From: Parvibaculum sp.
GTDB lineage: Bacteria > Pseudomonadota > Alphaproteobacteria > Parvibaculales > Parvibaculaceae
Length of the DNA stretch: 64,000 bases
Direction: 5' to 3'
Assembly: GCA_019635955.1 (NCBI GenBank)
Contig: JAHBYL010000012.1
Span: forward strand, 1-64,000
Positions 673-14,732 of this stretch are shown here, piece by piece. Below the pieces are notes generated by a model, which worked only from the letters and a program-made list of their open reading frames with translations, was not told where the DNA came from and searched no databases. The stretch's first letter is position 1, and every line of letters begins with the position of its first letter. The translations under genes and the position numbers were made by a program.

Positions 673-687
673 AAGTCAAAAAAACGA

Positions 688-776
688 CGTCATGACCCGG
701 CTTGTCCGGGTCATCCACGTCTTTCTTCTTGATCGCGGCAAAGACGTGGATGGCCCGCATGAAGCGGGCCATGACG
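688..776. repeat. REP-type compound palindrome in the GTA cluster
   Basis: Two hairpins are arranged head to head. Hairpin one pairs 692-700 with 706-714 (ATGACCCGG/CCGGGTCAT). Hairpin two pairs 750-758 with 764-772 (ATGGCCCGC/GCGGGCCAT). The outer arms ATCCACGTC (713-721) and GACGTGGAT (743-751) also pair, and the whole element begins CGTCATG and ends CATGACG. This is the layout of intergenic REP/BIME-like elements scattered in many alphaproteobacterial chromosomes. It fills the gap before the adaptor gene and has no T-tract, so it is not an ordinary terminator. Confidence 0.75.
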
Positions 777-804
777 AATTTTATTAGCCTTGGAACCACC
801 ACAC

Positions 805-2253: not shown

Positions 2254-2667
2254 ATGACAGCCCAGAAAGGCAAGGACCTGCTGCTGAAGCTCGACAGCAC
2301 GGGCGAGGGAAGTTTCATCACCGTCGCGGGGCTTCGCTCCCGCGCCATCGCCTTCAATGCTCGCGCGGTGGACGTGACGCACGCCGAGTCCGCCGGCCGC
2401 TGGCGCGAGCTGCTGGAAGGCGCGGGCGTCCGCTCCGCCGCCATCACGGGCCGCGGCATCTTCCGCGATGCGGCGTCGGATGCGAGCGTCCGAGACATCT
2501 TCTTCGCGGGCGCCATCCGCGCCTGGAGAGTCGTCATCCCCGATTTCGGAACCGTGACCGGCCCCTTCCAGATCACCGCGCTCGAATTCGCAGGCGACCA
2601 TGACGGCGAAATCACCTTCGACCTTGCGCTGGAGAGCGCCGGCGAGATTGCCTTCGCAGCGGCATGA
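2254..2667 (+). CDS. Major tail tube protein, GTA gp9-like
   Basis: This 137-residue protein begins MTAQKGKDLLLKLDSTGEGSF. The order of motifs GKDLLLKL, ITVAGLRSR, VDVTHAESAGRWRELL and TGRGIFRDA is characteristic of the TP901-1/GTA family of tail tube proteins, and the length is normal. It would stack as hexameric rings to form the tail. The stop abuts the stop of a minus-strand gene at 2669. In canonical GTA clusters gp10 follows at once; here about 2 kb of unrelated exported-protein genes intervene. Confidence 0.88.
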   Translation: MTAQKGKDLLLKLDSTGEGSFITVAGLRSRAIAFNARAVDVTHAESAGRWRELLEGAGVRSAAITGRGIFRDAASDASVRDIFFAGAIRAWRVVIPDFGTVTGPFQITALEFAGDHDGEITFDLALESAGEIAFAAA

Positions 2668-2668
2668 G

Positions 2669-3562
2669 CTAAAGGATAGTGCCCGGCAAGTCCGATTTCG
2701 GAACGACGATCTCGCCCGTGGCTGCGTCCTCGATCCAGATCGTATGGGTATGTATCCGCAGGCCACCGGATCGCTTCAAGGCAAAATCGAACTTGACGAC
2801 ATAGGCCGCGCCCGGCTTCGCATCCAGAAGAACGGGAAGATAGCCTTCGTACAGGCCGGTGCGCGCGAGGATCGCGATGGCCCGCGTGCCGGGCGCAAGG
2901 GCGACGGACTTCGTCGGTTCCCACAGCGGCGCGACCCACACGCCGCGTTCCCTGTCTTCCGGCACAATCTGCCCGTCGACAGCGATGGGATAGACGCTGA
3001 GGCCGCTCTCGTGGACTGTGCCGCGGATCGTCGCCACATCGGCGCCGGAGGGTGGCCGGTAGCGCCCCTCGATCGACATAAGGAGATCCGGCGTCTTCGG
3101 CACGACGATTTCGCCGGTCCGCTCATCCTCGATATAGAGCCATGTGCGGATACGGTTGTAATTGAGCCCGTCCGCCCAGTTGGTGTCCTCGGCTCGTTTG
3201 ACGACATAGCGGCCGCCCGGCTTTGCATCGAGCATCACGGGAATGGAATCGCCGCGCCTGCCGACGATATAGCCGATGGTGAGCGATTGGGGGCCGGGCT
3301 TGAGTTCTATCGGCACGTCGAACTTTTCGTCTTCAAAGGCAACCTTGCCATTGATGGCGAAGACACCGACGGCATAGGTCGCGCTGCCGACAAGGCCCGG
3401 CTTTTGCGAATAGCTGCCGCGCAATGTCGCCGGTTCTGCAATGCCCGTAAGGTCCGGCTTGTAGGGCTGAAAATCGGCGGGCGGCAGTGTCTCGAGCTTC
3501 GGCGCGCAGGCGGCGAGCGAAAGGGCGAGAGCGGCCAGGACAAAGGAAAGGAATCTTTTCAT
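2669..3562 (-). CDS. Lipoprotein with two copies of an unknown domain (cargo gene A)
   Basis: This 297-residue product begins MKRFLSFVLAALALSLAACA, a lipoprotein signal with Cys19 as the acylation site. ATG 3562 has GAGGATG upstream; the frame is open further up but without a signal peptide. The mature protein contains two similar modules, about residues 45-156 and 177-289. Each runs from an AT(L/I)RG strand through a PVMLDAKPG/PVLLDAKPG block to YVVK and an IEDE/IEDA..TGEIVVPK finish, so an internal duplication is plain. I do not recognise the family. It lies antisense to the GTA genes, between tail tube and gp10, tail to tail with the former, and is probably transcribed separately. Function is unknown; an envelope or surface role is inferred from the lipobox. 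Confidence 0.8.
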   Translation of the reverse strand: MKRFLSFVLAALALSLAACAPKLETLPPADFQPYKPDLTGIAEPATLRGSYSQKPGLVGSATYAVGVFAINGKVAFEDEKFDVPIELKPGPQSLTIGYIVGRRGDSIPVMLDAKPGGRYVVKRAEDTNWADGLNYNRIRTWLYIEDERTGEIVVPKTPDLLMSIEGRYRPPSGADVATIRGTVHESGLSVYPIAVDGQIVPEDRERGVWVAPLWEPTKSVALAPGTRAIAILARTGLYEGYLPVLLDAKPGAAYVVKFDFALKRSGGLRIHTHTIWIEDAATGEIVVPKSDLPGTIL

Positions 3563-3599
3563 CGGATCATCCTCGGCAATTTTAGCGCACGCAGCGCGC

Positions 3600-4529
3600 T
3601 CAGCGGTCTCTCTCGCACCATTGCTTCGGCTTCGGCGGCGGTCGCTTTGCTTTCTTGTCCGTGAACGACGTTTGCGTATCGTAGGATACGCCCGCGAAAT
3701 AGGTTGCCCCGCGGTTGATGACATTGAGGGCAACGGGAAGACCGGACACGACATCCTTGCCCGCTGTCTCGTCATGGATCGAGATGACAACCTGCCCGTT
3801 GAAATTGCCCATGCGCAACTCGCCCGGCCGGATCACGTAGCTGTGCCCGGGCTCGAGGTCGAGCAGTAAAGGAAAGACCTGCCACCAGCCGTACGAGCCG
3901 GATGGCGAAATGACCAGGGGTTGCATGGAAACGGGAAAGGCCGACGACGCATGCGATATCATGAAGCTGAGCGCGCGGGTTCCGGGTTCGACGGAGGTTG
4001 ATGTCGTTTTGTCCGTAAGGCGATTGCCATCGACCGTGTAGAGATTAGCGCTTCCCTGCTCGACCGACCCGGCGAGCAGGGTTGCAATTCGCGCTTTCTC
4101 GATTCTGATTGTCGCCGCATCCGCGCTTCCCGGCGCACTTGCGTTCGGCGGTGCTGATGTCTGGGAGATAATGGCGCCAGACCTTGTCTCCCTGATGAGA
4201 ATGTTGTCCTTGCCCGCCTTCTCCACGACATAGACGTCTCCCGCCGAAACATCGAGGCGAATGGGGAGAAGGGCCCTGCCATTGGCGACCACGATGGAGT
4301 GGGGGCCGGGCGCGAGGTCATGGCGGGCGCAGCTTGCCTCAGGGCCGAAAATGGTCCTGCCGTTGATCGCGGCGATCCGCGTACCGGAACTGCCGAACGT
4401 GCCATGGATGACGTCTCCGCGAATGGTCGCCAGAGACGGGTCCTGCGGCGGCGGTGCGGGCTCGCGCTCCTGCGCATGGGCGGTGGTGGCAGCGAAGATC
4501 GCGATGGCGGCAAGGCGTAGAAGTTTCAC
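3600..4529 (-). CDS. Exported protein related to neighbouring lipoprotein (cargo gene B)
   Basis: This 309-residue product has a GTG start at 4529, chosen because it gives a signal peptide (VKLLRLAAIAIFAATTAHA, cleaved before Gln20) and has GGGGGACT upstream. A cysteine lipobox is absent. Two modules, about residues 33-124 and 138-263, resemble those in the neighbouring lipoprotein: ATIRG, a short AINGR strand, DLAPGPHSI or EPGTRALSF turns, and LPIRLDVSAGDVYVVEK or FPLLLDLEPGHSYVIRPG. The C-terminus is proline- and lysine-rich (KKAKRPPPKPKQ). With its downstream neighbour it forms a minus-strand pair, 37 bp apart, inserted between tail tube and gp10. The pair looks like a diverged gene duplication. 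Function is unknown. Confidence 0.75.
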   Translation of the reverse strand: MKLLRLAAIAIFAATTAHAQEREPAPPPQDPSLATIRGDVIHGTFGSSGTRIAAINGRTIFGPEASCARHDLAPGPHSIVVANGRALLPIRLDVSAGDVYVVEKAGKDNILIRETRSGAIISQTSAPPNASAPGSADAATIRIEKARIATLLAGSVEQGSANLYTVDGNRLTDKTTSTSVEPGTRALSFMISHASSAFPVSMQPLVISPSGSYGWWQVFPLLLDLEPGHSYVIRPGELRMGNFNGQVVISIHDETAGKDVVSGLPVALNVINRGATYFAGVSYDTQTSFTDKKAKRPPPKPKQWCERDR

Positions 4530-4626
4530 GAACGAAGTCCCCCGGTGTTGCGCTTCGGGCGAAGCGCGGCCCCGGGGAAAGGATAGCCGCATTCGGGCGG
4601 CAGGCTCCAGCATCAATGAGGTGGAA

Positions 4627-4944
4627 ATGGCAAACAGGCACAGAGGCGAAATCGAGGCCTTCCTCGATGGCGAGCGCATGACGCTGGTCTTGACGCTCGG
4701 CGCGCTTGCCGAGCTTGAGCAGGCTTTCGGCGGCGAGGACATGCTGGCGCTGGCGATCCGTTTCGAAACGGGCCGCATCGCCGCCGCCGACGCGGTGAAG
4801 ATCATCGGCGCGGGCCTCCGCGGCGCGGGTCATCAGCATAGTGACGAAGATGTATCCCGCATGACGGCGGAAGGCGGCGCGGCGGGCTTCGTCGCCATCG
4901 TTGCGGAGTTGCTCTCCGCAACTTTCGGCGGAAGCGGCCAGTGA
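4627..4944 (+). CDS. GTA gp10 family protein, tail assembly
   Basis: This 105-residue protein begins MANRHRGEIEAFLDGERMTLVLTLGALAELE. The opening MAN-x-x-RGE and the TLGALAELE helix are the signature of the 'gene transfer agent family protein' encoded between tail tube and tape measure. By position it acts with the next gene as a tail assembly chaperone. ATG 4627 gives the family start, although the GAGGTGG before it is unusually close. It overlaps the next gene by GTGA. Upstream lie the two antisense cargo genes instead of the tail tube gene. Confidence 0.85.
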   Translation: MANRHRGEIEAFLDGERMTLVLTLGALAELEQAFGGEDMLALAIRFETGRIAAADAVKIIGAGLRGAGHQHSDEDVSRMTAEGGAAGFVAIVAELLSATFGGSGQ

Positions 4945-5153
4945 GCGCGCCGCGTTTTCCCTGGGACGAAGCCATGTCGCTCGGCCTCGGCCAGCTGCGC
5001 CTGCCGCCGGAAATCTTCTGGCGCCTGACGCTCCCCGAACTCGCCGCCGCCGCCCGCGCATTGCGGCCGGTGCGGCAGCACGGAATGAGCCGGCAGTCGC
5101 TGCGCCGGATGATGCTGGCCTTCCCTGACGAGGGGTGTGAATCCGGTCAATAA
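4941..5153 (+). CDS. Phage tail assembly chaperone (TIGR02216-type)
   Basis: This 70-residue product starts at a GTG overlapping the gp10 stop. The motifs FPWDEAMSLGLGQLRLPPEIFWRLTLPELAAA match the short alphaproteobacterial tail chaperone (gp10.1 position). In this family the protein coats the tape measure during tail assembly. The C-terminal end (FPDEGCESGQ) runs into a visibly AT-rich spacer. The tape measure gene normally follows immediately; here two lipoprotein genes come first. Confidence 0.85.
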   Translation: MSAPRFPWDEAMSLGLGQLRLPPEIFWRLTLPELAAAARALRPVRQHGMSRQSLRRMMLAFPDEGCESGQ

Positions 5154-5261
5154 TCGGGTCTATAGAGACTTTGATTATTGCACATCGAAATTTTGATTGT
5201 ACCATTCGACTTGGGTGCTGGCGTTGTAAGTCGGCGGTCATTGGGACTTTGGGGGGACCAG

Positions 5262-5987
5262 ATGAATATCTTGAGCCGTATCGGCGTGGTTGCGGCCGCG
5301 CTGCTGATGCTTGCCGGTTGTGCGACCCAGCCGGCCATTCCGTTCGACAGCTCCTCGGCAGGGCAGATCAAGACAATCGGCATCCTGACGCCGGATATTC
5401 CTACGGGTCCTTCGGCGATCCTCGCGAGCAGCGTCGGGCAGAGTTTCGGGCTGATCGGCGCTCTGGTCGATGCCGGCATGCAGTCCTCGCGCGAGAGCGA
5501 TCTGAAGTCCATGCTGAATTCGCGCCAGTTCGTGGCTCATGACAAGCTGATGGCCGGTGTGACCGCGTCGCTCGAGGCCCAGGGCTATGAAGTGCGCCGT
5601 GTCTCCGTCGCGCGCTCGGAGCGCGGCGAATTCCTGAAGACCTATCCGCTCTCCAACACCGAGAAAGTGGATGCCTATCTCGATATCGTGATGAGAGGCT
5701 ATGGCTATATCGCTGCGGGCATTACCGACGGCACGCCCTACCGGCCGATTGTCGAAACGCGTGTGCGTCTCGTCAGTGCGAAGGATTCAAGCGTGTTGAT
5801 GGAAGATGTCATCTTCTACAATCGCCTCAACGCCACTTACGAAACGACCAACGTCACGATTTCGCCCGACCCGGCCTATTCCTTTTCGGACTTCTCGTCG
5901 CTGGAGCGCGATCCCGACAAGGCGGTGGAGGGGCTCGATATCGCCTTTGCGAAATCGACCGAGGCAATCGCCACCTTGTTGCGCTAG
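5262..5987 (+). CDS. Lipoprotein of unknown function (cargo gene C)
   Basis: This 241-residue product begins MNILSRIGVVAAALLMLAGCATQ, a clear lipobox (LAGC). ATG 5262 has a GGGGGGACC stretch upstream and gives the signal peptide; an in-frame ATG at 5178 would put 28 unlikely residues ahead of it. The mature part opens IKTIGILTPDIP and contains a LDIVMRGYGYIAAG strand block and a RVRLVSAKDSSVLMED block. That layout is loosely reminiscent of outer-membrane-associated lipoproteins that act in trafficking, but I cannot assign a family. It is co-directional with the GTA genes and followed nine bases later by a second lipoprotein, so the two form an inserted mini-operon between tail chaperone and tape measure. 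Confidence 0.78.
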   Translation: MNILSRIGVVAAALLMLAGCATQPAIPFDSSSAGQIKTIGILTPDIPTGPSAILASSVGQSFGLIGALVDAGMQSSRESDLKSMLNSRQFVAHDKLMAGVTASLEAQGYEVRRVSVARSERGEFLKTYPLSNTEKVDAYLDIVMRGYGYIAAGITDGTPYRPIVETRVRLVSAKDSSVLMEDVIFYNRLNATYETTNVTISPDPAYSFSDFSSLERDPDKAVEGLDIAFAKSTEAIATLLR

Positions 5988-5996
5988 GAGCAGCGC

Positions 5997-6632
5997 ATGA
6001 ACAAGTGGAAATGCCTCGCAGTGGCGTCCGCGGGATTGCTCGTCGCCTCCTGCGCAAACAACGCGCCCGACCTGTCGCCGCTGGTGCAGATTGCGCCGGC
6101 CTCCTGCACGCAGGAGCCCAATCTCGGTCGCGCCCTGCCAGTCAGCTTCAGCGCCGAAGGCAAGATCGAGGCCGTGAGGGCGACGATCTCGGAGCAGAGC
6201 CCCTGTCTCACCGTCGGTGAGAAAAAGAGCCTCTACGAGGTCTTCGCTCTGCCGGAAGCCGGTCAGCCGATCATCGTCACGGTGCGGAGCCTGCCGAGTA
6301 CACGCGGTATCCTGCCGCCGCGGATCGTGGTGCTGGACAAGGAGGGCAAGGTTCTGCGGCAGATCGACCGTGAGTCCATCCATTTTCGCGGTACGGCTCT
6401 CACCGCCATGCTGCGCACGCGGCCGGGCGATCGCTACCTGGTGGTCTCATCCGATCCTGATGTGGTCGGCACCGACATTTCCCGCGTGAGCGGCAATGTC
6501 AATCAGCAGATGATTTCGACAGGCGCCTTCATGGTGCCCGTTTACACAGGCTCGGAATCGACCGCCAGCATGACCTATGCGCATAACGGGACGGTGGATG
6601 TTTCCGTCCGGGCTATCCCGGTGGCCAGGTAG
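5997..6632 (+). CDS. Lipoprotein of unknown function (cargo gene D)
   Basis: This 211-residue product begins MNKWKCLAVASAGLLVASCANN, with a lipobox VASC. AGGAGCAG lies just before the ATG. The mature region has strands typical of a periplasmic beta-sandwich: SFSAEGKIEAVRATI, GQPIIVTVRSLPS, PPRIVVLDKEGKVLRQID and GDRYLVVSSD. The last three are faintly like MalM-type periplasmic proteins (PF07148), a weak comparison from memory only. It sits nine bases behind the preceding lipoprotein, and together they separate the tail chaperone from the tape measure. Function is unknown. Confidence 0.76.
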   Translation: MNKWKCLAVASAGLLVASCANNAPDLSPLVQIAPASCTQEPNLGRALPVSFSAEGKIEAVRATISEQSPCLTVGEKKSLYEVFALPEAGQPIIVTVRSLPSTRGILPPRIVVLDKEGKVLRQIDRESIHFRGTALTAMLRTRPGDRYLVVSSDPDVVGTDISRVSGNVNQQMISTGAFMVPVYTGSESTASMTYAHNGTVDVSVRAIPVAR

Positions 6633-6722
6633 CGGCCACCATCCGGCACGAAACCGAAATGCGCTGGCCGATGGCCGGCGCATTTTTCGTTTCAGGCCCG
6701 GCTGTTCTGATCGGAGAAGAAA

Positions 6723-7352
6723 ATGACCCCCGACACCGACCCCGAAACCCTCACCCGCGCCATGGAGCAAGCGGGCGAGGCGGCGCGTCTCTTCGCGCTC
6801 GACAGCGAACGCGCGCTGAAAAGTGTCAGCGCCGAGCTCCGCCGCACCACGCGTGACGGCCGCGATTTCGGCGATGCGCTGGCCTCTGCTTTTGAAGGCG
6901 CGGCGTTGAAAGGCCGCTCGCTTTCCGACACGCTCAGGAAACTCGCGCTCGATCTGTCGCGCATTGCGCTGGACGGCGCGCTGAAGGCCGTCACGGGTGC
7001 TGTCTCCGGCGGCATCGGCAATGCCATCGGCTCTCTCGTCATGAATGCCGATGGCAATGCGATTGCCGATGGCCGCGTGCTGCCCTTCGCGAAGGGCGGC
7101 GTTGTCTCGAGCCCCATGCTCTTTCCCCTGCGCGGCGGCACCGGCCTTGCGGGCGAAGCAGGCGCGGAGGCGATCCTGCCGCTCCGTCGTGGCGCGGATG
7201 GCCGCCTCGGCGTCGCGGCGGGCGAGGGCGCCCCGCCCATGCAGATCACGTTCAACGTAACGGCAACAGACGTCGCGAGCTTCCGCCGCTCGGAATCGCA
7301 GATCGCGGCGATGCTTGCCCGCGCCGCTGCGCGCGGCCGCAGAAACACTTGA
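6723..7352 (+). CDS. Short phage tail tape measure protein, GTA gp11-like
   Basis: This 209-residue protein is very close in length to the R. capsulatus GTA tape measure (about 220), far shorter than tape measures of siphophages, in keeping with the short GTA tail. Features visible are an N-terminal charged helical half (residues 1-90), a glycine-rich hydrophobic stretch TGAVSGGIGNAIGSLV, then the conserved block FAKGGVVSSPMLFPL, GLAGEAGAEAILPL and QITFNVTATDVASFRRS. The start follows GGAGAAAA. It should span the tail lumen and set tail length. Confidence 0.88.
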   Translation: MTPDTDPETLTRAMEQAGEAARLFALDSERALKSVSAELRRTTRDGRDFGDALASAFEGAALKGRSLSDTLRKLALDLSRIALDGALKAVTGAVSGGIGNAIGSLVMNADGNAIADGRVLPFAKGGVVSSPMLFPLRGGTGLAGEAGAEAILPLRRGADGRLGVAAGEGAPPMQITFNVTATDVASFRRSESQIAAMLARAAARGRRNT

Positions 7353-7368
7353 ATGAGGAGTATCTGAC

Positions 7369-8001
7369 ATGGCCTTCCACGACATCAGGTTTCCGCTCGA
7401 GATCGCGCTCGGTGCGAGCGGCGGGCCGGAGCGGCGCACGGAAATCGTCACCCTCGGCTCCGGCCGCGAGGAGCGCAACAGCCCCTGGGCGCTCTCGCGG
7501 CGGCGTTACAATGCGGGCTTCGGCCTGAAGCGGCTCGACGACATTCACGCGCTCATCGCCTTCTTCGAGGCGCGTCACGGTCGTTTGCACGGCTTTCGCT
7601 GGCGGGACCGCGCCGACTGGAAAAGCGCCGCGCCGTCGGCCGCCGTCTCCGCCCTCGATCAGGCGCTCGGGCAGGGCGATGGCGAGCGCATATCGTTCCA
7701 GCTCGTGAAGACCTATGCGTCGGGCGGCGCAAGCTACACCCGCGAGATCGCCAAGCCCGTTGCGGGCAGCATCCGCGTCGCGATGGCAGGCGCGCCGTTG
7801 GAAGGGGGCGTCGATTACACCGCCGATCCCGCAACCGGCCTCGTCACTTTCACGTCGCCGCCTGCGCCCGGCGCGGCGGTCACCGCCGGTTTTGAATTCG
7901 ACGTCCCCGTCCGCTTCGACACCGACTTCCTCGACATCAACCTCGCCGCCTTCGAAGCCGGCAGCGTTCCGGACATTCCGGTCATCGAGATCAGGTTATG
8001 A
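7369..8001 (+). CDS. Distal tail protein (DUF2460), GTA gp12-like
   Basis: This 210-residue protein begins MAFHDIRFPLEIALGASGGPERRTEIVTLGSGREERN, the standard DUF2460/TIGR02217 opening, followed by RYNAGFGLKRLDDIHALIAFFEARHG, FRWRDRADWKS, and a C-terminal FDTDFLDINLAAFEAGSVPDIPVIEIRL. Family members form the ring joining tail tube to baseplate hub. The gene is 16 bp behind the tape measure. Its stop is five bases from the stop of a convergent cargo gene, so the usual tight junction with the hub gene is broken here. Confidence 0.92.
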   Translation: MAFHDIRFPLEIALGASGGPERRTEIVTLGSGREERNSPWALSRRRYNAGFGLKRLDDIHALIAFFEARHGRLHGFRWRDRADWKSAAPSAAVSALDQALGQGDGERISFQLVKTYASGGASYTREIAKPVAGSIRVAMAGAPLEGGVDYTADPATGLVTFTSPPAPGAAVTAGFEFDVPVRFDTDFLDINLAAFEAGSVPDIPVIEIRL

Positions 8002-8006
8002 GCGGT

Positions 8007-9488
8007 CTAGAAGAACTCCGGAAAATCGGCGGAAAGCCGCTTCTCGATCGAATCGACCCGTGCGAGTGGGTCGCTCTCGGCCTGATTTCGCCCGGGCAAC
8101 GCCCTGCCGAGGTCGTAGAAGAGCCATGCCGTCGGAATTTCAAAGGAGTAGGTAAAGTGATCGCCGATATCCTTATAGAAGCTGCCGACATAGGGATTGC
8201 CCAGTATGGCGTCGCGATGAAGGCGGCGTGCGTCTTCGGGCCTTGTGCCTTGCGCGTTAAGTCCGTTCGCAATGAACGCGCCGACCAGATATCCGTTTGA
8301 AAGCAAACTCGTGTCGATGCTCTCCCGCTCTCTTGTTGCGGCTGCAGGGTCGGACTGTTCGATACGGAACGAGTGAAGCAGCGCGCGGCCGTTTGGATCG
8401 CGTTCTGCCGCCTGAACGATCTTCCCGAATGGGTGGCAAGCGGTTTCGCTGGAGGGACAAGTAGAAAGATTATCCCCGTACTGCAGCGAAAGCTCCAGCG
8501 CAAGGGCCAGCGCCTGAAAGGATTGTCCAGCGCGCATGGCATTGTCGATAGCCGATTTGTAATTGGAAACGCTTTGCGGTCCGGAACCATGGCGCCCAGC
8601 TACGGCGTCGAGCATCACGGGCATCAACTCGCGCAGGATTTTTGCTCCGGGTCTTTCGAGCGGCGCGACGGCACGATCGGGTCTGATATCGGCTTTGAAA
8701 TCGGCTGGAAGGGGATAGCTGGGTGTCACCGGGCCTGCGGAGATCAGGACAAGAGTTGTGTATTTGAAACCCCCGCTGTTCTTGGCGCGAACATAAGCGA
8801 TTTCCTGCGGGACGGTGCCGCCCGACGTCATGGCATCGAGAATGGCCGGATGAACCGAGGTAACCTCCCGCATCCCCTGGACGAACCGCTTCCGCAGGGC
8901 AACTGGAACCTGTGTCGTCGAGAGGGTGAAGGAGGAGACCTCCGAACCGCCATAGCTGAACCGGACAATGTCCCCATCGTCGCGCCTTGACGCAATCGCA
9001 TCCGGCGCCGTGCGATCGGGGACCCGGAGTTCCACGGCTGCCCAGAAGGGATTCACCGACGAAGGAGGATCGTTGACGTTCATGGACTCAAGCGTGCGAC
9101 GCAGGTGTTGGCGATTTTGCATTTCGTAGGCGCGAAATGCGATTTCCCCATACAGCGAGTAATTTTCGAAGCTGCGCTTGCTCCGGTCGATGCGAATGCT
9201 TCGTCTTAGCTTGAAATCGATAAGACGAAAATGCGCTTCTCTCGCGGTTTCGATGAAGTCTTCAGCGAGGGTCAGCGTCACCTGTTCCTTGCTGCCGCCA
9301 TCTGTGACGCTTTCATAGACAATACGAAACCCGGTTGGGCTGATCGGGCCGTGCGCTTCGCGAAGTTCGGTTGCCGTGCGCTGCGGTCCGACAACGCTCG
9401 GCTGACTGGCGAAGGTGCTGCCTGCCGCCCCGGTCAACGCGCTCATCATTGTCGAGGCAATCAGAATGACCCTGGCTGTGCTTTTCAT
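8007..9488 (-). CDS. Large exported protein of unknown function (cargo gene E)
   Basis: This 493-residue product starts at ATG 9488, preceded by GGGAGGCAAT. It has a signal peptide (MKSTARVILIASTMMSALTGAAGSTFA). The mature protein is mixed alpha/beta and I do not recognise it. An N-terminal ~250 residues carries strands such as FRIVYESVTDGGSKEQVTLT and FKYTTLVLISAG. The C-terminal ~200 residues is helical with four cysteines, of which CPSSETAC is a tight pair. Lower-GC codon choice than in the flanking GTA genes is visible by eye. It is antisense to the cluster, between distal tail and hub genes, with its own upstream region (9489-9592). Like the other four inserted genes, it encodes an exported product. 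Confidence 0.75.
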   Translation of the reverse strand: MKSTARVILIASTMMSALTGAAGSTFASQPSVVGPQRTATELREAHGPISPTGFRIVYESVTDGGSKEQVTLTLAEDFIETAREAHFRLIDFKLRRSIRIDRSKRSFENYSLYGEIAFRAYEMQNRQHLRRTLESMNVNDPPSSVNPFWAAVELRVPDRTAPDAIASRRDDGDIVRFSYGGSEVSSFTLSTTQVPVALRKRFVQGMREVTSVHPAILDAMTSGGTVPQEIAYVRAKNSGGFKYTTLVLISAGPVTPSYPLPADFKADIRPDRAVAPLERPGAKILRELMPVMLDAVAGRHGSGPQSVSNYKSAIDNAMRAGQSFQALALALELSLQYGDNLSTCPSSETACHPFGKIVQAAERDPNGRALLHSFRIEQSDPAAATRERESIDTSLLSNGYLVGAFIANGLNAQGTRPEDARRLHRDAILGNPYVGSFYKDIGDHFTYSFEIPTAWLFYDLGRALPGRNQAESDPLARVDSIEKRLSADFPEFF

Positions 9489-9592: not shown

Positions 9593-10435
9593 ATGAAAAC
9601 CATCTCCCCCGGCCTCGCGGCGCATCTTGCTGCGGGCGTGACCACACTTGCCTGGTGCTGGAATCTCACGCGCCGCGACGGCGTGGTGCTCGGCTTTACG
9701 GAGCATGACCGCGATCTCGCCTTCGGCGGCGTTATCTATGAGGCCGCCGCGGGCTTCACGGCGTCCGCCATCGAAAGCACGAACGGCCTCAACCCCGGCA
9801 ATCTCGATGTCGCGGGCGCGCTTACCTCCGCGCATCTCGACGAAGGCGATCTCGCCGCCGGTCTCTATGACGATGCCGAATTCGAGATCTGGCGCGTCAA
9901 CTGGCAGGACGTGGACGAGCGCCTCCTGATGCGCAAAGGGAATCTCGGCGAGGTCTCGCGCGCGGGCGCCGCCTTCACGGCGGAACTCCGCGGCCTCGCG
10001 CATAGGCTGAACCAGCCCGTCGGCCGCCTCTATCAATATGGCTGCGACGCCGATTTCTGCGATGCGCGCTGCGGCCTCGCGGCGGCGGACTGGACGGCGG
10101 AGGCGGTGGTCGCAAGTGCGAGCGCCGACAGGGAAGTTATCGCGATGGAACTCGCTGCCTTCCCCGCCGGTCATTTCACGCGCGGCAGGCTCCGCTTCAC
10201 GAGCGGCGCGAATGAAGGCGCGGCGATGGAGGTGAAAGCGCATGGCGCGGGCGGCCGCATCGAGCTTTGGCGCGCCGCCGCACGGCCGGTCCTCGCCGGA
10301 GACACATTCGAGGTGACGGCCGGTTGCGACAAGCAGTTCGCTACCTGCCGTGACCGCTTTGCCAATGCCGCGAACTTCCGCGGCTTCCCGCATATGCCGG
10401 GCAATGATTTCGTGATCGCGACGGCGGGTAACTGA
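9593..10435 (+). CDS. Baseplate hub protein (DUF2163), GTA gp13-like
   Basis: This 280-residue protein has the DUF2163 hallmarks GLAAHLAAGVTTLAWCWNLTRRDG near the N-terminus, a LGFTEHDRDLAFGG strand block, and the C-terminal CRDRFANAANFRGFPHMPG. Cysteines cluster at 151, 156, 160, 245 and 252 (YGCDADFCDARC and GCDKQFATC). In GTA hub proteins such a cluster has been reported to hold an iron-sulfur centre; a metal site here is inferred from spacing. The stop is one base before the ATG of the peptidase gene. The hub links distal tail to the peptidase and megatron. Confidence 0.9.
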   Translation: MKTISPGLAAHLAAGVTTLAWCWNLTRRDGVVLGFTEHDRDLAFGGVIYEAAAGFTASAIESTNGLNPGNLDVAGALTSAHLDEGDLAAGLYDDAEFEIWRVNWQDVDERLLMRKGNLGEVSRAGAAFTAELRGLAHRLNQPVGRLYQYGCDADFCDARCGLAAADWTAEAVVASASADREVIAMELAAFPAGHFTRGRLRFTSGANEGAAMEVKAHGAGGRIELWRAAARPVLAGDTFEVTAGCDKQFATCRDRFANAANFRGFPHMPGNDFVIATAGN

Positions 10436-10436
10436 C

Positions 10437-10874
10437 ATGACGGCGAGAGATGACATCGTCGCCGCCGCGCGCGGCTGGATCGGCACGCCCTATCGCCATC
10501 AGGCAAGCGTGAAGGGCGTGGGCGCCGATTGCCTCGGCCTCTTGCGCGGCGTCTGGCGCGAAACCATGGGGCCGGAGCCGGAAGCCCCGCCCGCTTATGC
10601 GCCGGACTGGGCGGAAGCCCCCGGCACGGCCGAGGCCATGGCGGAAGCCGCACGCCGCCACATGGTGGAAATTGCGGCCACTGAAGCGCGCGCGGGCGAT
10701 GTGCTGCTCTTCCGCATGCGCCGTCACGGTCCCGCCAAACATGCCGCCATCGTCAGCGGCGTCGATCGCATGATCCATGCCTGGTCGGGCCATGCCGTCG
10801 TCGAAACCCATATCGGCCGCTGGTGGCGCGCCCGCGCCGCCTTCGCTTTCCGCTTTCCGCATATCGAGGACTAG
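10437..10874 (+). CDS. NlpC/P60 family cell-wall peptidase, GTA gp14-like
   Basis: This 145-residue protein has an NlpC/P60 fold. The nucleophile Cys32 lies in GADCLGLLRGVW, a His at 102 is in KHAAIV, and a further His at 114 is in RMIHAW, giving a plausible Cys-His catalytic set. These enzymes cut peptide cross-bridges of peptidoglycan, and in the GTA tail the peptidase helps the particle cross the recipient wall. It sits one base after the hub stop and three bases before the megatron gene, as in known GTAs. Confidence 0.92.
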   Translation: MTARDDIVAAARGWIGTPYRHQASVKGVGADCLGLLRGVWRETMGPEPEAPPAYAPDWAEAPGTAEAMAEAARRHMVEIAATEARAGDVLLFRMRRHGPAKHAAIVSGVDRMIHAWSGHAVVETHIGRWWRARAAFAFRFPHIED

Positions 10875-10877
10875 AAA

Positions 10878-13800
10878 ATGGCGACACTCGTTCTTTCGAG
10901 CGCGGGCTCCGCGCTTGGCAGCGCGTTGCTGCCTTCCGGCCTGAGCTTTTTCGGCGCGACGATTTCCGGCGCCGCGCTCGGCAGTGCGCTCGGCTCCCTC
11001 GCGGGCTCGATGGTCGATGCCCGTCTCTTCGGCAGCTCGTCGCATGTCGAAGGCCCGCGTCTCGGCGACCTCCATGTCATGGCGTCGAGTGAAGGCGCGC
11101 CGATCCCGAAGCTTTACGGGCGTGCGCGCCTCGGCGGGCAGGTCGTCTGGGCGACGGACTACAAGGAACATCGCCACACGCGTTCGGCTGGCGGCGGCAA
11201 GGGTGGCGGCTCGTCGGCAAGCGTCACCGAATACAGCTACTCCGTTTCCTTCGCCGTGGCGCTCTGCGAAGGCGAGGTCGCGCGCATCGGCCGCGTCTGG
11301 GCCGACGGCAAGCCGCTCTCGCTGGCGAATGTCACCTGGCGGCTGCACCGCGGCGGCGAAGACCAGATGCCCGATCCGCTGATCGAAACAATCATGGGCG
11401 TCGCCCCTGCCTATCGCGGCACGGCCTGTATCGTCTTCGAGGACTTCGATGTCGCGCCCTTCGGCAACCGCATTCCGCAACTGAGCTTCGAGGTCTTCCG
11501 CACGCTGGATGGCGTGGAAAGTCTCGTGCGCGCCGTTACGGTGATCCCCGGCGCCGGAGAATTCGTCTACGACACGGAACCGCGCCGCGAAATCCTGAGC
11601 GAAGTCTCGAGCCGTCCGCTCAACATGCATATGGCCTCGGGCGTCGCTGACTTCACCGCCGCGCTGGACGAGCTTCAGGCCGCGCTCCCCAGTGTCGGCG
11701 CGGCGCTCCTCGTCGCGTCCTGGTTCGGCGACGATCTGCGCTGCGGCTCCTGCACCATCCGCCCCAAGGTCGAGACGCGCCACAAGATCACCTGGCCGGA
11801 GCCGTGGAGCGTCGCCGGGCTCCCCCGCCATGCCGCCGCCGAAGTGAGCCGCATCGACGGCCGCCCCGCCTATGGCGGCACGCCCTCCGACGCGAGCCTC
11901 CGCCGCGCGCTCGCCGATATGAAGGCGCGCGGGCTCGCCACCGTCTTCTATCCCTTCGTGATGATGGACATTCCACCGGATGCGGAGCTGCCCGATCCCT
12001 CGGGCGAGGGCGCGCAAGGCGCTTATCCCTGGCGCGGCCGCATCGCGCCCGCAGGCGACACGGCGGCGGATGTCGCCGCCTTCTTCGGCAGCGCCGCGCC
12101 CGGTGCGAGCGAATGGTCATACCGCCGCATGGTGCTGCACTACGCGCAGCTCTGCGCGTCGGCTGGCGGTGTCGATGCCTTCATCATTGGCTCGGAACTG
12201 CGCGGGCTGACGCAGGCGCGCGATGGTTCCGGCAACTATCCCGCCGTCGCTGCATTGATGCAGCTTGCGGCGGATGTCCGCGTGATCCTCGGAGCCGATA
12301 CGAAAATTTCCTATGCCGCCGACTGGTCGGAATATCGCGGCCATGACAGGGGCGAGGGCCGCTTCGCCTTCCATCTCGATCCGCTCTCGGCCGATGCGAA
12401 TATCGACTTCATCGGCATCGATATGTACGCCCCGCTCACCGACTGGCGCGACGGCGATAACCATCTCGATGCGCAGGACTGGGCCTCGATCTACGACCTC
12501 GGCTATCTCCGCTCGCGCATCGCGGGCGGCGAGGATTATGACTGGCATTATGCAAGCGACGATGACCGCGCCTTGCAAATCCGCACGCCGATTACCGATG
12601 GCGCCTATGGCAAGCCCTGGCTCTGGCGCGCGAAAGACCTGAAGAACTGGTGGTCGAACGCGCATCATGATCGCGACGATGGCACGGAAGCGGATGCGCC
12701 GACGGCCTGGGTGCCGCAATCGAAGCCGATCTGGTTCACCGAACTCGGCTGTCCCGCGATCGACAAGGGCACGAACGAGCCCAATCGCTTCGTCGATCCG
12801 AAATCGGCGGAAAGCGCCGTGCCGCATTTCTCGCGCGGCACACGGGACGATTTCATCCAGCGCCGCTTCATCGAGGCGCAGGTGAGCTACTGGTCGCCCG
12901 CCCATGCCGACCACGTTGTGGGCACAAACCCGGCCTCCGATATCTATGGCGGGCCGATGGTCGATCCCGCGCGCATGTTCTTCTGGACATGGGACGCGCG
13001 GCCTTTCCCGGCCTTCCCGGAGCGGAGCGATGTCTGGGCGGATGCGGCGAACTGGCGGCTCGGCCATTGGCTGAACGGCCGCATGGGCGCAGCGCCGCTC
13101 GCCGCGCTCACGGCTGCGATCATGCGCGAGGCAGGCTTTGACGATTTCGATGCCGACGGCCTCCACGGCGTGATCGACGGCTTCGTGATCGACCGCATCA
13201 TGTCGCCCCGCGCCGCCATCGAGCCTTTGATGCTCATGGGCTTCTTCGATGCGGCGGAAACGGAAGGCCGCATCCTCTTCCGCCATCTCGATGAGGGCGC
13301 AACCACGGCGCTCACGCCGGACATGCTCGCGGTCGGCGACGACAGCGCCGCCCCCGGCTGGAAGCTCACCCGCGCGCAGGAGACGGAACTCCCCGCCGCG
13401 CTGAAGCTCACCTATATCGCTGGCGGCATGGAATACCGTCAGGCAGCGGTGGAGGCGCGCCGTCTCGCAGGCGGCAGTCAGCGGGTCGTGACGGCGGCGC
13501 TGCCCATGGTGCTGACACAGATGGATGCCCAGCGCATCGCCGACCTCTGGCTGCAAAAGACATGGGAGGAGCGCGAGCGGGGCGACTTCGCGCTGCCGCC
13601 AAGTCTCCTCGCGCTCGATCCGGGCGACACCGTCTCGCTTGATCTCGGCCACCGCAGCGCGCGCTACCGCCTCACAGGCATTGCCGATGCAGGCGCGCGG
13701 GAAGCATCTGGCGTCTCGGGCATGCCGGGCCTCTTCGCGCCTTCCGATGCGCCGCCGCGCGACGCCGTGCCCGCCGCGCCGCGCGACTATGGCCTGCCGC

Positions 13801-14732
13801 TTGCGGTCTTCATGGATCTGCCGCTCATCACCGGCCATGAAACACCGCATGCGCCGCGCATCGCCGTCGCCGCCGATCCTTGGCCGGGCGGCGTTGCGGT
13901 CTGGCGCGACAGCGGCGCGGGCGTGGCGCTCGATCGCGTGGTGACGGCGGCGGCTACGCTCGGCCGCACGGTGTCTACGCTGCCGCCGGGCCCCGCCTCG
14001 CGCTGGGACGAGGCGAACGAACTCACGGTTGCGCTCGCAAGCGGCGCTCTGTCGAGCGCGTCCGAAGGCGCGGTGCTCGGCGGCGCGAATGCCGCCGCGC
14101 TCGAAGCGCCGGATGGCACGTGGGAGGTGATCCAGTTCCGCGAGGCCGAACTCGTCGCGCCCGCGACATACATGCTGCGCGGCCTGCTGCGCGGTCAGGC
14201 GGGCACGGAACGCGCCATGCGCGCCCCGCTCGAAGCGGGCGCACGCTTCGTCCTGCTTGACGATGCCGTGAGCGAACTCGGCCTTCTCGATGCCGAACGT
14301 GGCCTTGCCCGCCAATGGCTCTATGGCCCCGCGCCGCTGCCTTACGACGACCCGTCCTATGCGAGCGTCACCCGTGCCTTCGATGGCGTCGGCCTTCGCC
14401 CGCTGTCGCCCGTGCATCTTCGCGCCCGGCGCGTCGAGGACGGCACGATCCGTCTTTCATGGGTGAGGCGCACACGCTTGGGCGGCGACAGCTGGCAGGG
14501 GCTCGATGTGCCGCTCGGCGAGGAGCTGGAAGCATATGAAATCGAAATCCGCGATGGCGATGCCGTGAAGCGCATCCTCGCCACCAGCGAACCGCAGGCC
14601 ACCTACAGCGCCGCTGAGCAGAGCGCCGATTTCGGCCATACGGATTTCGAAAGTCTCGACGTCACCATCTATCAACTGAGCCGCGCCTTTGGCCGCGGCA
14701 GCGGAAGGAGCGCGCATCTTCATGTCGAATAG
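10878..14732 (+). CDS. Baseplate megatron with TIM-barrel glycosidase domain, GTA gp15-like
   Basis: This 1284-residue protein is about the usual size for the multidomain megatron. The N-terminus is small-residue rich (GSALGSALLPSGLSFFGATI). It is followed by a VEGPRLGDLHVMASSEGAPIPKLYGRARLGGQV block that starts most members. A TIM-barrel-like glycoside hydrolase region lies around residues 330-700 and contains IGSEL (Glu440) and WFTELGCPAID (Glu622) as candidate acid/base residues. The rest holds tail-tip and fibronectin-like segments. The family forms the tip complex that contacts and penetrates the recipient envelope. It overlaps the DUF2793 gene by 11 bp. Confidence 0.92.
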   Translation: MATLVLSSAGSALGSALLPSGLSFFGATISGAALGSALGSLAGSMVDARLFGSSSHVEGPRLGDLHVMASSEGAPIPKLYGRARLGGQVVWATDYKEHRHTRSAGGGKGGGSSASVTEYSYSVSFAVALCEGEVARIGRVWADGKPLSLANVTWRLHRGGEDQMPDPLIETIMGVAPAYRGTACIVFEDFDVAPFGNRIPQLSFEVFRTLDGVESLVRAVTVIPGAGEFVYDTEPRREILSEVSSRPLNMHMASGVADFTAALDELQAALPSVGAALLVASWFGDDLRCGSCTIRPKVETRHKITWPEPWSVAGLPRHAAAEVSRIDGRPAYGGTPSDASLRRALADMKARGLATVFYPFVMMDIPPDAELPDPSGEGAQGAYPWRGRIAPAGDTAADVAAFFGSAAPGASEWSYRRMVLHYAQLCASAGGVDAFIIGSELRGLTQARDGSGNYPAVAALMQLAADVRVILGADTKISYAADWSEYRGHDRGEGRFAFHLDPLSADANIDFIGIDMYAPLTDWRDGDNHLDAQDWASIYDLGYLRSRIAGGEDYDWHYASDDDRALQIRTPITDGAYGKPWLWRAKDLKNWWSNAHHDRDDGTEADAPTAWVPQSKPIWFTELGCPAIDKGTNEPNRFVDPKSAESAVPHFSRGTRDDFIQRRFIEAQVSYWSPAHADHVVGTNPASDIYGGPMVDPARMFFWTWDARPFPAFPERSDVWADAANWRLGHWLNGRMGAAPLAALTAAIMREAGFDDFDADGLHGVIDGFVIDRIMSPRAAIEPLMLMGFFDAAETEGRILFRHLDEGATTALTPDMLAVGDDSAAPGWKLTRAQETELPAALKLTYIAGGMEYRQAAVEARRLAGGSQRVVTAALPMVLTQMDAQRIADLWLQKTWEERERGDFALPPSLLALDPGDTVSLDLGHRSARYRLTGIADAGAREASGVSGMPGLFAPSDAPPRDAVPAAPRDYGLPLAVFMDLPLITGHETPHAPRIAVAADPWPGGVAVWRDSGAGVALDRVVTAAATLGRTVSTLPPGPASRWDEANELTVALASGALSSASEGAVLGGANAAALEAPDGTWEVIQFREAELVAPATYMLRGLLRGQAGTERAMRAPLEAGARFVLLDDAVSELGLLDAERGLARQWLYGPAPLPYDDPSYASVTRAFDGVGLRPLSPVHLRARRVEDGTIRLSWVRRTRLGGDSWQGLDVPLGEELEAYEIEIRDGDAVKRILATSEPQATYSAAEQSADFGHTDFESLDVTIYQLSRAFGRGSGRSAHLHVE

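Follow-up and report, generated by a model that had tools for sequence, protein, structure and literature searches.

Gene transfer agents (GTAs) are commonly described as tight, conserved, domesticated clusters. Moron-type cargo, meaning independently transcribed accessory genes, is known from prophages, and Llp of phage T5 is a superinfection-exclusion lipoprotein. Here, we describe five inserted genes, A to E, in the GTA cluster of a Parvibaculum metagenome-assembled genome (MAG) of 3.26 Mb in 201 contigs (handle G000), whose relatives are Parvibaculum; the window that we analyzed is bases 1 to 64,000 of one of its contigs. Among the closest described systems, Ltp of Streptococcus thermophilus phages is a superinfection-exclusion lipoprotein (PMC3952083), the Caulobacter GTA has a terminator inside the cluster that is passed through GafZ antitermination (PMC11150451), and lysis in Caulobacter runs via LypABC (PMC13236601). 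No report of such cassettes in GTA clusters was found in the literature searched, including the accessible portions of PMC9836097, PMC13236601, and PMC11150451.

All five reading frames are open where the initial annotation had placed them, and they interrupt the GTA gene order at three junctions, as it had claimed.
2669 to 3562, minus strand: gene A, a lipoprotein whose two halves look related by eye; paralogue of B and second gene in a presumed B-A unit
3600 to 4529, minus strand: gene B, an exported paralogue of A with a GTG start
5262 to 5987, plus strand: gene C, a lipoprotein of 241 amino acids, first gene in the C-D unit
5997 to 6632, plus strand: gene D, a lipoprotein of 211 amino acids, second gene in the C-D unit, with a weak likeness to MalM
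8007 to 9488, minus strand: gene E, an exported protein of 493 amino acids
Genes A and B occupy the junction of GTA genes g9 and g10, C and D that of g10b and g11, and E that of g12 and g13. The initial annotation left out the orientation of A, B, and E, which lie on the strand opposite to the GTA genes; the stop codon of A lies 1 nucleotide (nt) from that of g9, and the stop codon of E lies 5 nt from that of g12. We propose that A to E probably fall into three cassettes for envelope proteins, B-A, C-D, and E, each self-contained, that are moron-type passengers of the Parvibaculum GTA cluster, insulated from GTA transcription. The restriction of the inserts to three junctions, their patchiness, a swap of B, a divergence of C-D that is out of step with neighboring genes, and mostly purifying selection were all observed directly.

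Our first search covered 61 genomes (27 Parvibaculum, the window's included, 10 of the same family, and 24 of the class) and listed 37 places; besides the window's own, all except that in G047 were retrieved for comparison. A class sample of 289 genomes gave 47 places; the 20 best additional ones were analyzed and 20 weaker ones left out. Loci from IMG/VR were added to the set. Three genomes without a g12 match (G019, G021, and G023) were left out of the counts, and G014 entered via C. The junction counts rest on 26 Parvibaculum loci that are not independent, given that G000/G002 and L131/L132 are near-identical pairs. Four loci were excluded beforehand, namely the diverged GTA-like tail modules of G005 (L063), G006 (its second module, L060), and G009 (L062) and an empty contig of G026. 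Gaps of at least 500 bp were present in Parvibaculum at g9/g10 in 11 of 24 loci, at g10b/g11 in 12 of 24, and at g12/g13 in 3 of 23 (3/24 if the empty G026 contig were included), and at none of the remaining eight of the eleven junctions measured from g6 to g16. Two of the twelve g10b/g11 gaps (G003 and G004) are filled by a holin-type cassette alone. Across 31 loci of other genera, the corresponding counts were 0/28, 0/24, and 3/31, the last from a single genus, and inserts were found elsewhere, at g14/g15 in 6 of 30 loci and once apiece at g6/g7, g7/g8, g11/g12, and g13/g14. One GTA cluster of another family (G040; L059:11367-14326, oriented) carries three exported-looking genes at g14/g15.

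The insertion sites are not merely the loosest joints, given that g9 and g10 overlap by 4 nt in six listed insert-free Parvibaculum loci. At g12/g13, the spacing is 3 to 4 nt in ten insert-free loci, and other empty loci have gene-free spacers that reach 130 nt at g9/g10 and 208 nt at g12/g13; the view that clusters are tight at these joints thus holds largely, with the spacers as its exceptions. The full A-to-E set was seen only in the window, G002 has A to D, and many clusters keep their tail genes without any of the five (e.g., G001, G012, G018, G022, and G025). Members of these families turn up again, at matching junctions, in independent genomes, including the one-contig G013 (B only) and P. 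sedimenti HXT-9 (C-D, together with the holin-like cassette described below), and in IMG/VR contigs. A MAG assembly artefact was rejected because of this recurrence of identical families at identical junctions.

The history of the inserts points to both loss and exchange. Placed by eye on the GTA-gene tree, the g9/g10 insert fits a single gain in the window's clade, followed by loss in G025 and by a B/A fusion gene in G010 and L128. In partial sets, only B (G013 and G008) or only A (G011, L131, and L132) is present. Between G000 and G002, identity is 48 to 59% over positions 3700 to 4400, the mature part of B, versus 88 to 100% through A and 92 to 100% from the B 5' end to D (92 to 98% over the B 5' end and its upstream side); the rate of synonymous substitution (dS) was 1.37 for B versus 0.02 to 0.30 for intact neighbors. 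G002 has lost most of g12 through g16 (L065:9433-10024) and keeps A to D, with A, C, and D at 96 to 100% and B swapped. Between L128 and the window, dS was 0.98 to 0.99 for C-D versus 0.22 to 0.58 for g8, g9, g10, and g11. Recombination breakpoints of the C-D tract within g10b of L128 were unconvincing, since every pair shows variation at the 3' end of g10b. Two contigs of the MAG G026 are 94 to 96% identical, one with E and the other empty, and no target-site duplication was seen by eye at E. The ratio of nonsynonymous to synonymous substitution (dN/dS) was 0.03 to 0.28 for most pairs, indicating purifying selection, and because orthologues show ratios below 1, we rejected the idea that these are chance open reading frames.

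The orientation of the inserts is consistent across GTA loci. A/B genes are antisense in 24 of 24 cases (at two junctions) and E in 3 of 3, and C and D are each sense in 8 of 8. Measured from the preceding GTA stop, the first antisense stop codon is at -4 to 8 nt in 13 of 15 A/B cases and at 5 to 6 nt in all three E cases; because of the A/B exceptions in G011 (29 nt) and G015 (105 nt), we rejected a strict rule of tail-to-tail spacing. Two signals accompany the C-D unit.
5171 to 5181, plus strand: TTGATTATTGC motif upstream of C, 11 bases, taken from the window itself
6657 to 6685, plus strand: predicted intrinsic terminator between D and g11, from a custom script (hairpin of -21.8 kcal/mol, then T-rich)
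A predicted terminator closes the C-D unit in 7 of 8 loci, and the hairpin with its T-rich tail comes straight after D in G000, G002, G008, L128, and G007 (-18.9 to -22.0), against a script background of 38 hairpins at -18 or stronger per 115,123 bp of GTA coding sequence. The motif lies 91 to 110 nt upstream of C. Seven of the eight GTA copies keep at least 8 of its 11 positions, against none of the six non-GTA copies, and for each of these seven GTA copies, 0 to 10 of 200 shuffled upstream sequences reached the observed match. As far as sequence signals show, the placement of each cassette would allow its transcription to stop short of the downstream GTA genes, and orientation together with the predicted terminators suggests that the cassettes are expressed independently of GTA production. 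A terminator within the late operon would make readthrough a requirement, and the GTA late transcript would pass the one after C-D by antitermination, GafZ-like as in Caulobacter. Across B-A and E, this late transcript would be antisense, and these three genes would thus be expressed mainly in nonproducers and damped in producers.

The products of the cassettes are predicted to go to the envelope. A lipobox is present in A, C, and D, and in those C, D, and A-type relatives that have a full N-terminus, in agreement with the claim of three lipoproteins; the lipoprotein rule gave 4 positives among the 55 called window genes, three of which were A, C, and D. B and E begin with signal-peptide-like segments that lack a lipobox, in line with the earlier statement that all five have signal peptides. 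The crude export rule missed E, whose signal segment is plainer in its two relatives. That rule also flagged g9 and g10, which makes its nonlipoprotein class unreliable. A and B are paralogues of 28% identity; kinship of A/B with D, or of C with E, was unsupported apart from signal peptides. None of the five had a family match above a curated cut-off in Pfam, NCBIfam, or PHROGs, and none matched a structural family, which bears out the claim that they do not resemble GTA structural proteins. Below threshold, E matched FlgO (0.032), C matched a P2 Rz1-like model (0.045), with the match confined to the signal peptide, and D matched MalM (PF07148; 1.6e-4) at 21.8 bits, under the Pfam cut-off of 26 and thus short of family membership. 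All 11 members of the D family scanned match MalM at E values up to 1 (best 1.4e-6). Relatives of A/B gave weak scattered matches (best 0.05), and 1 of 12 C relatives matched Peripla_BP_6 at 2.4e-4, with nothing comparable in the other 11. Sequence matches to solved structures were taken as chance (C to three designed proteins, 0.005; D to an arsenite ATPase, 0.21; E to an OrfX1 chain, 0.89; none for A/B), as were two weak C matches to defense genes in PADLOC (E values of 0.011 and 0.055).

How closely are these families tied to the GTA cluster? Among the 61 genomes, E occurs in three, every time at g12/g13; C and D each occur in eight, seven times in the GTA cluster and once elsewhere (G032); and A/B gave 25 matches in 13 genomes, 19 of them in GTA clusters. 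In IMG/VR, which is biased toward virus-like DNA and in which several loci repeat one another or genomes already counted, 5 of 5 A/B loci and 2 of 2 C loci are GTA clusters, and E had no match. Searches of C against phage records and of A against plasmid records, the only two pairings searched, gave no match. D-like matches were present in 6 of the 289 class-sample genomes, the window's included, and in G311, about 36 kb separate the D-like gene from that genome's own g12. Taken with the purifying selection and the cassette-like signals of C-D, the recurrence at few joints of a conserved cluster supports the original proposal of moron-like, envelope-targeted cargo.

Several observations weigh against passenger cassettes of this kind. 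The initial annotation had named the lack of a GTA association across several genera as grounds for abandoning its proposal, and in its strict form this is what we found, because relatives of A to E in GTA clusters were seen in Parvibaculum alone and none in those of other genera in the 61 genomes. It had likewise named the same gene order outside GTAs: adjacent C-D pairs and A/B relatives do occur there, and E never does in the 61 genomes. Six of the 25 A/B matches lie outside GTA clusters, and so do 5 of 10 named C loci (L109 to L113), on contigs without a GTA match (two of them short), with D adjoining C each time. The GC content of A to E, 58 to 63%, is lower than the 66 to 70% of the GTA genes. 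Searches of Pfam, NCBIfam, PHROGs, and PADLOC gave no family match of A to E pointing to exclusion or defense. A 120-amino-acid family without an evident signal peptide occupies g10b/g11 in three species, antisense in 3 of 3 (L045:6145-6507, L032, and L033), so exported products are not a general rule of the inserts. Regarding transcription, a terminator after C-D is missing in G017, and in G020 (-21.6) and G006 (-16.6, below the strength of the background class) the hairpin lies ahead of the holin and after further genes. A separate terminator scan gave 10 sites, close to the 7.7 expected, and the hairpin after D was not among them; a consensus promoter scan gave one promoter-like site versus 1.5 expected, which is chance level. 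Regarding exchange and selection, g7 and g10b also reach a dS of 0.75 in the L128 comparison, G026 is possibly a strain mixture, dN/dS rose to 0.32 to 0.42 for the swapped B pair and in the comparison of C and D with G017, and dS exceeded 1 in many pairs, among them every E pair, a range in which the dN/dS estimate is poor. As side observations, the 120-amino-acid family has a remnant in G006 and non-GTA copies in G007 and G035, and the non-GTA A/B genes in G008 and G026 (L095 and L096) adjoin apparent lipid A genes (waaA, lpxK, and lpxL, read by eye).

A rival explanation is that ordinary host envelope genes landed at tolerant joints, where they would serve the cell without any GTA-related function and would have spread because conserved GTA genes make good homology arms. 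We regard such hitch-hiking as a serious alternative with a sizable minority chance of being correct, given that C-D pairs and A/B paralogues reside outside GTAs in varied neighborhoods, including half of the named C loci, that the association is confined to one genus, that insert GC is below that of the GTA genes, and that loss is seen, as in G025, where g9/g10 is empty with a 4-nt overlap while its sister G016 has A and B. However, most copies of all families within the genus lie in the GTA cluster rather than across the genome, the g8/g9 junction, with spacers of up to 248 nt, is gene free whereas g9/g10, overlapping in several empty loci, takes genes, and A/B occur at two junctions and are antisense in all cases. 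A role as particle parts, with some of the exported proteins being tail or fiber components, is very improbable; only the position among tail genes speaks for it, and the signal peptides and lipoboxes, the lack of a structural-family match, and the absence of A to E from the many clusters that keep their tail genes all speak against it.

Another explanation arises from the sister clade, in which seven loci carry a holin-like gene at g10b/g11 (G003, G004, G006, G007, G015, G020, and L133).
L043:1206-2064, and also L046, L044, L045, L042, L047, and L133, at g10b/g11: holin-like gene, joined in several loci by a small membrane gene and a gene for a short lipoprotein
For the holin-like gene, the match is to phrog_17576 (unknown function), with only weak matches to PF09682 or a holin PHROG; the short, o-spanin-like lipoprotein hits phrog_26778, likewise of unknown function, and no family match was obtained for the small membrane gene, which is i-spanin-like by eye. 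If these labels are right, the g10b/g11 junction can host release functions, and the inserted lipoproteins could aid GTA exit as outer-membrane destabilizers or regulators beside holin and spanins in a g10b/g11 lysis cassette. In favor of this idea, several of the seven loci also carry the small spanin-like genes, some of them adjoin C-D or A/B, all six strong holin matches in the 61 genomes lie at g10b/g11 (weaker ones are elsewhere in G000, G011, and G050), and C has its sub-threshold Rz1-like match, if only in the signal peptide. We nonetheless consider a role in egress rather unlikely. The window's clade has no such holin in its GTA clusters, and the genome of the window carries just a weak relative, located on a different contig. 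Genes A, B, and E lie on the strand opposite to the late operon, a predicted terminator separates C-D from the holin in G006, G007, and G020, C-D is also found outside GTAs, and A to E are not lysis proteins by any test applied. C-D as a two-component spanin was rejected, since this would need a small inner-membrane protein and a short lipoprotein, but both are lipoproteins, of 241 and 211 amino acids. A third lipoprotein gene, of 172 amino acids, follows C-D in G006 and G020 (L046:11857-12375 and L043:551-1069).

Returning to moron-type envelope cassettes as our preferred explanation, we rank exclusion or gating as the first choice of function and lysis support as the second, with hitch-hiking as the serious alternative noted above. 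By analogy with the superinfection-exclusion lipoproteins of prophages, A to E may act at the outer membrane and alter who GTA particles or phages can hit, a suggestion that we make tentatively. The conserved flanking GTA genes would serve as homology arms for cassette exchange among related strains. A more far-reaching version, for which we see only a slim chance, is that surface-identity cassettes swapped among strains (B in its mature part, C-D, and E) would use the GTA cluster as a docking site, their alleles determining which GTA particles or phages are able to use a cell; silencing of the antisense cassettes by the late transcript would then give producers and nonproducers different surfaces, and GTA exchange would thereby be gated between kin groups. 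Much of one genus parks exchangeable envelope genes at three fixed joints of its GTA, in an arrangement that need not bring GTA and cassette transcription into conflict. Should the cassettes gate adsorption, a self/nonself filter would be built into GTA exchange, which bears on what keeps GTAs selected; if they do not, a domesticated element can still keep collecting morons.

The host of the inserts is an RcGTA-type cluster with an ordered tail module, g9 to g15, that includes the megatron baseplate protein.
2254 to 2667, plus strand: g9, GTA tail tube (Phage_tail_2, 1.3e-45)
4621 to 4944 (start possibly 4627), plus strand: g10, tail chaperone position, by synteny with relatives
4941 to 5153, plus strand: g10b, gp10.1 position, by synteny with relatives
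6723 to 7352, plus strand: g11, GTA tape measure (RcGTA_tape, 1.1e-56, under cut-off)
7369 to 8001, plus strand: g12, GTA distal tail (DUF2460, 1.6e-88)
9593 to 10435, plus strand: g13, GTA hub (Gp84_N and BR0599 domains)
10437 to 10874, plus strand: g14 (NlpC/P60, domain match)
10878 to 14732, plus strand: g15, GTA megatron (NF048004, 1724.9 bits)
The megatron score compares with a cut-off of 800, and the RcGTA_tape model (NF058675) gave 192 bits on g11, under its cut-off of 220; DUF2460, Phage_tail_2, and BR0599 domains were also detected. The upstream half of the cluster is missing from the window because the contig starts within the capsid gene, of which no other copy was found in the genome. 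Palindromic repeat-like elements with strong hairpins lie between GTA genes at window positions 685 to 777 and 2078 to 2253, and similar-looking elements occur at other GTA joints of relatives.

In comparison with known systems, the Parvibaculum cluster shares with the RcGTA and CcGTA clusters of Rhodobacter and Caulobacter a tail module with a megatron and an RcGTA-type tape measure; it differs in its A-to-E families, which were seen in no GTA cluster of the other genera among the 61 genomes, the Rhodobacter and Caulobacter clusters themselves lying outside this comparison. A terminator inside the cluster is a further likeness to CcGTA, where GafZ passes it (PMC11150451); the Parvibaculum terminator is a predicted one. 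With MalM, a maltose operon periplasmic protein, D and all 11 scanned members share a weak resemblance, but the window's D covers part of the profile, is under the cut-off, and sits in no maltose operon. Like the superinfection-exclusion lipoproteins Llp and Ltp, the products of A, C, and D and their relatives are exported lipoproteins encoded by a phage-like element, whereas B and E have no lipobox; the differences are the lack of a sequence relation in the libraries searched and the two-part A/B and paired C-D architectures. The likeness to prophage morons is the broadest: the inserts are extra genes between conserved structural genes, absent in relatives, patchy, lower in GC, and envelope directed, and a terminator of their own is predicted for C-D, though not for B-A or E. 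What sets them apart from prophage morons is that their host is a GTA-type cluster at a conserved locus and that, in most cases, an antisense cassette and the gene before it meet tail to tail.

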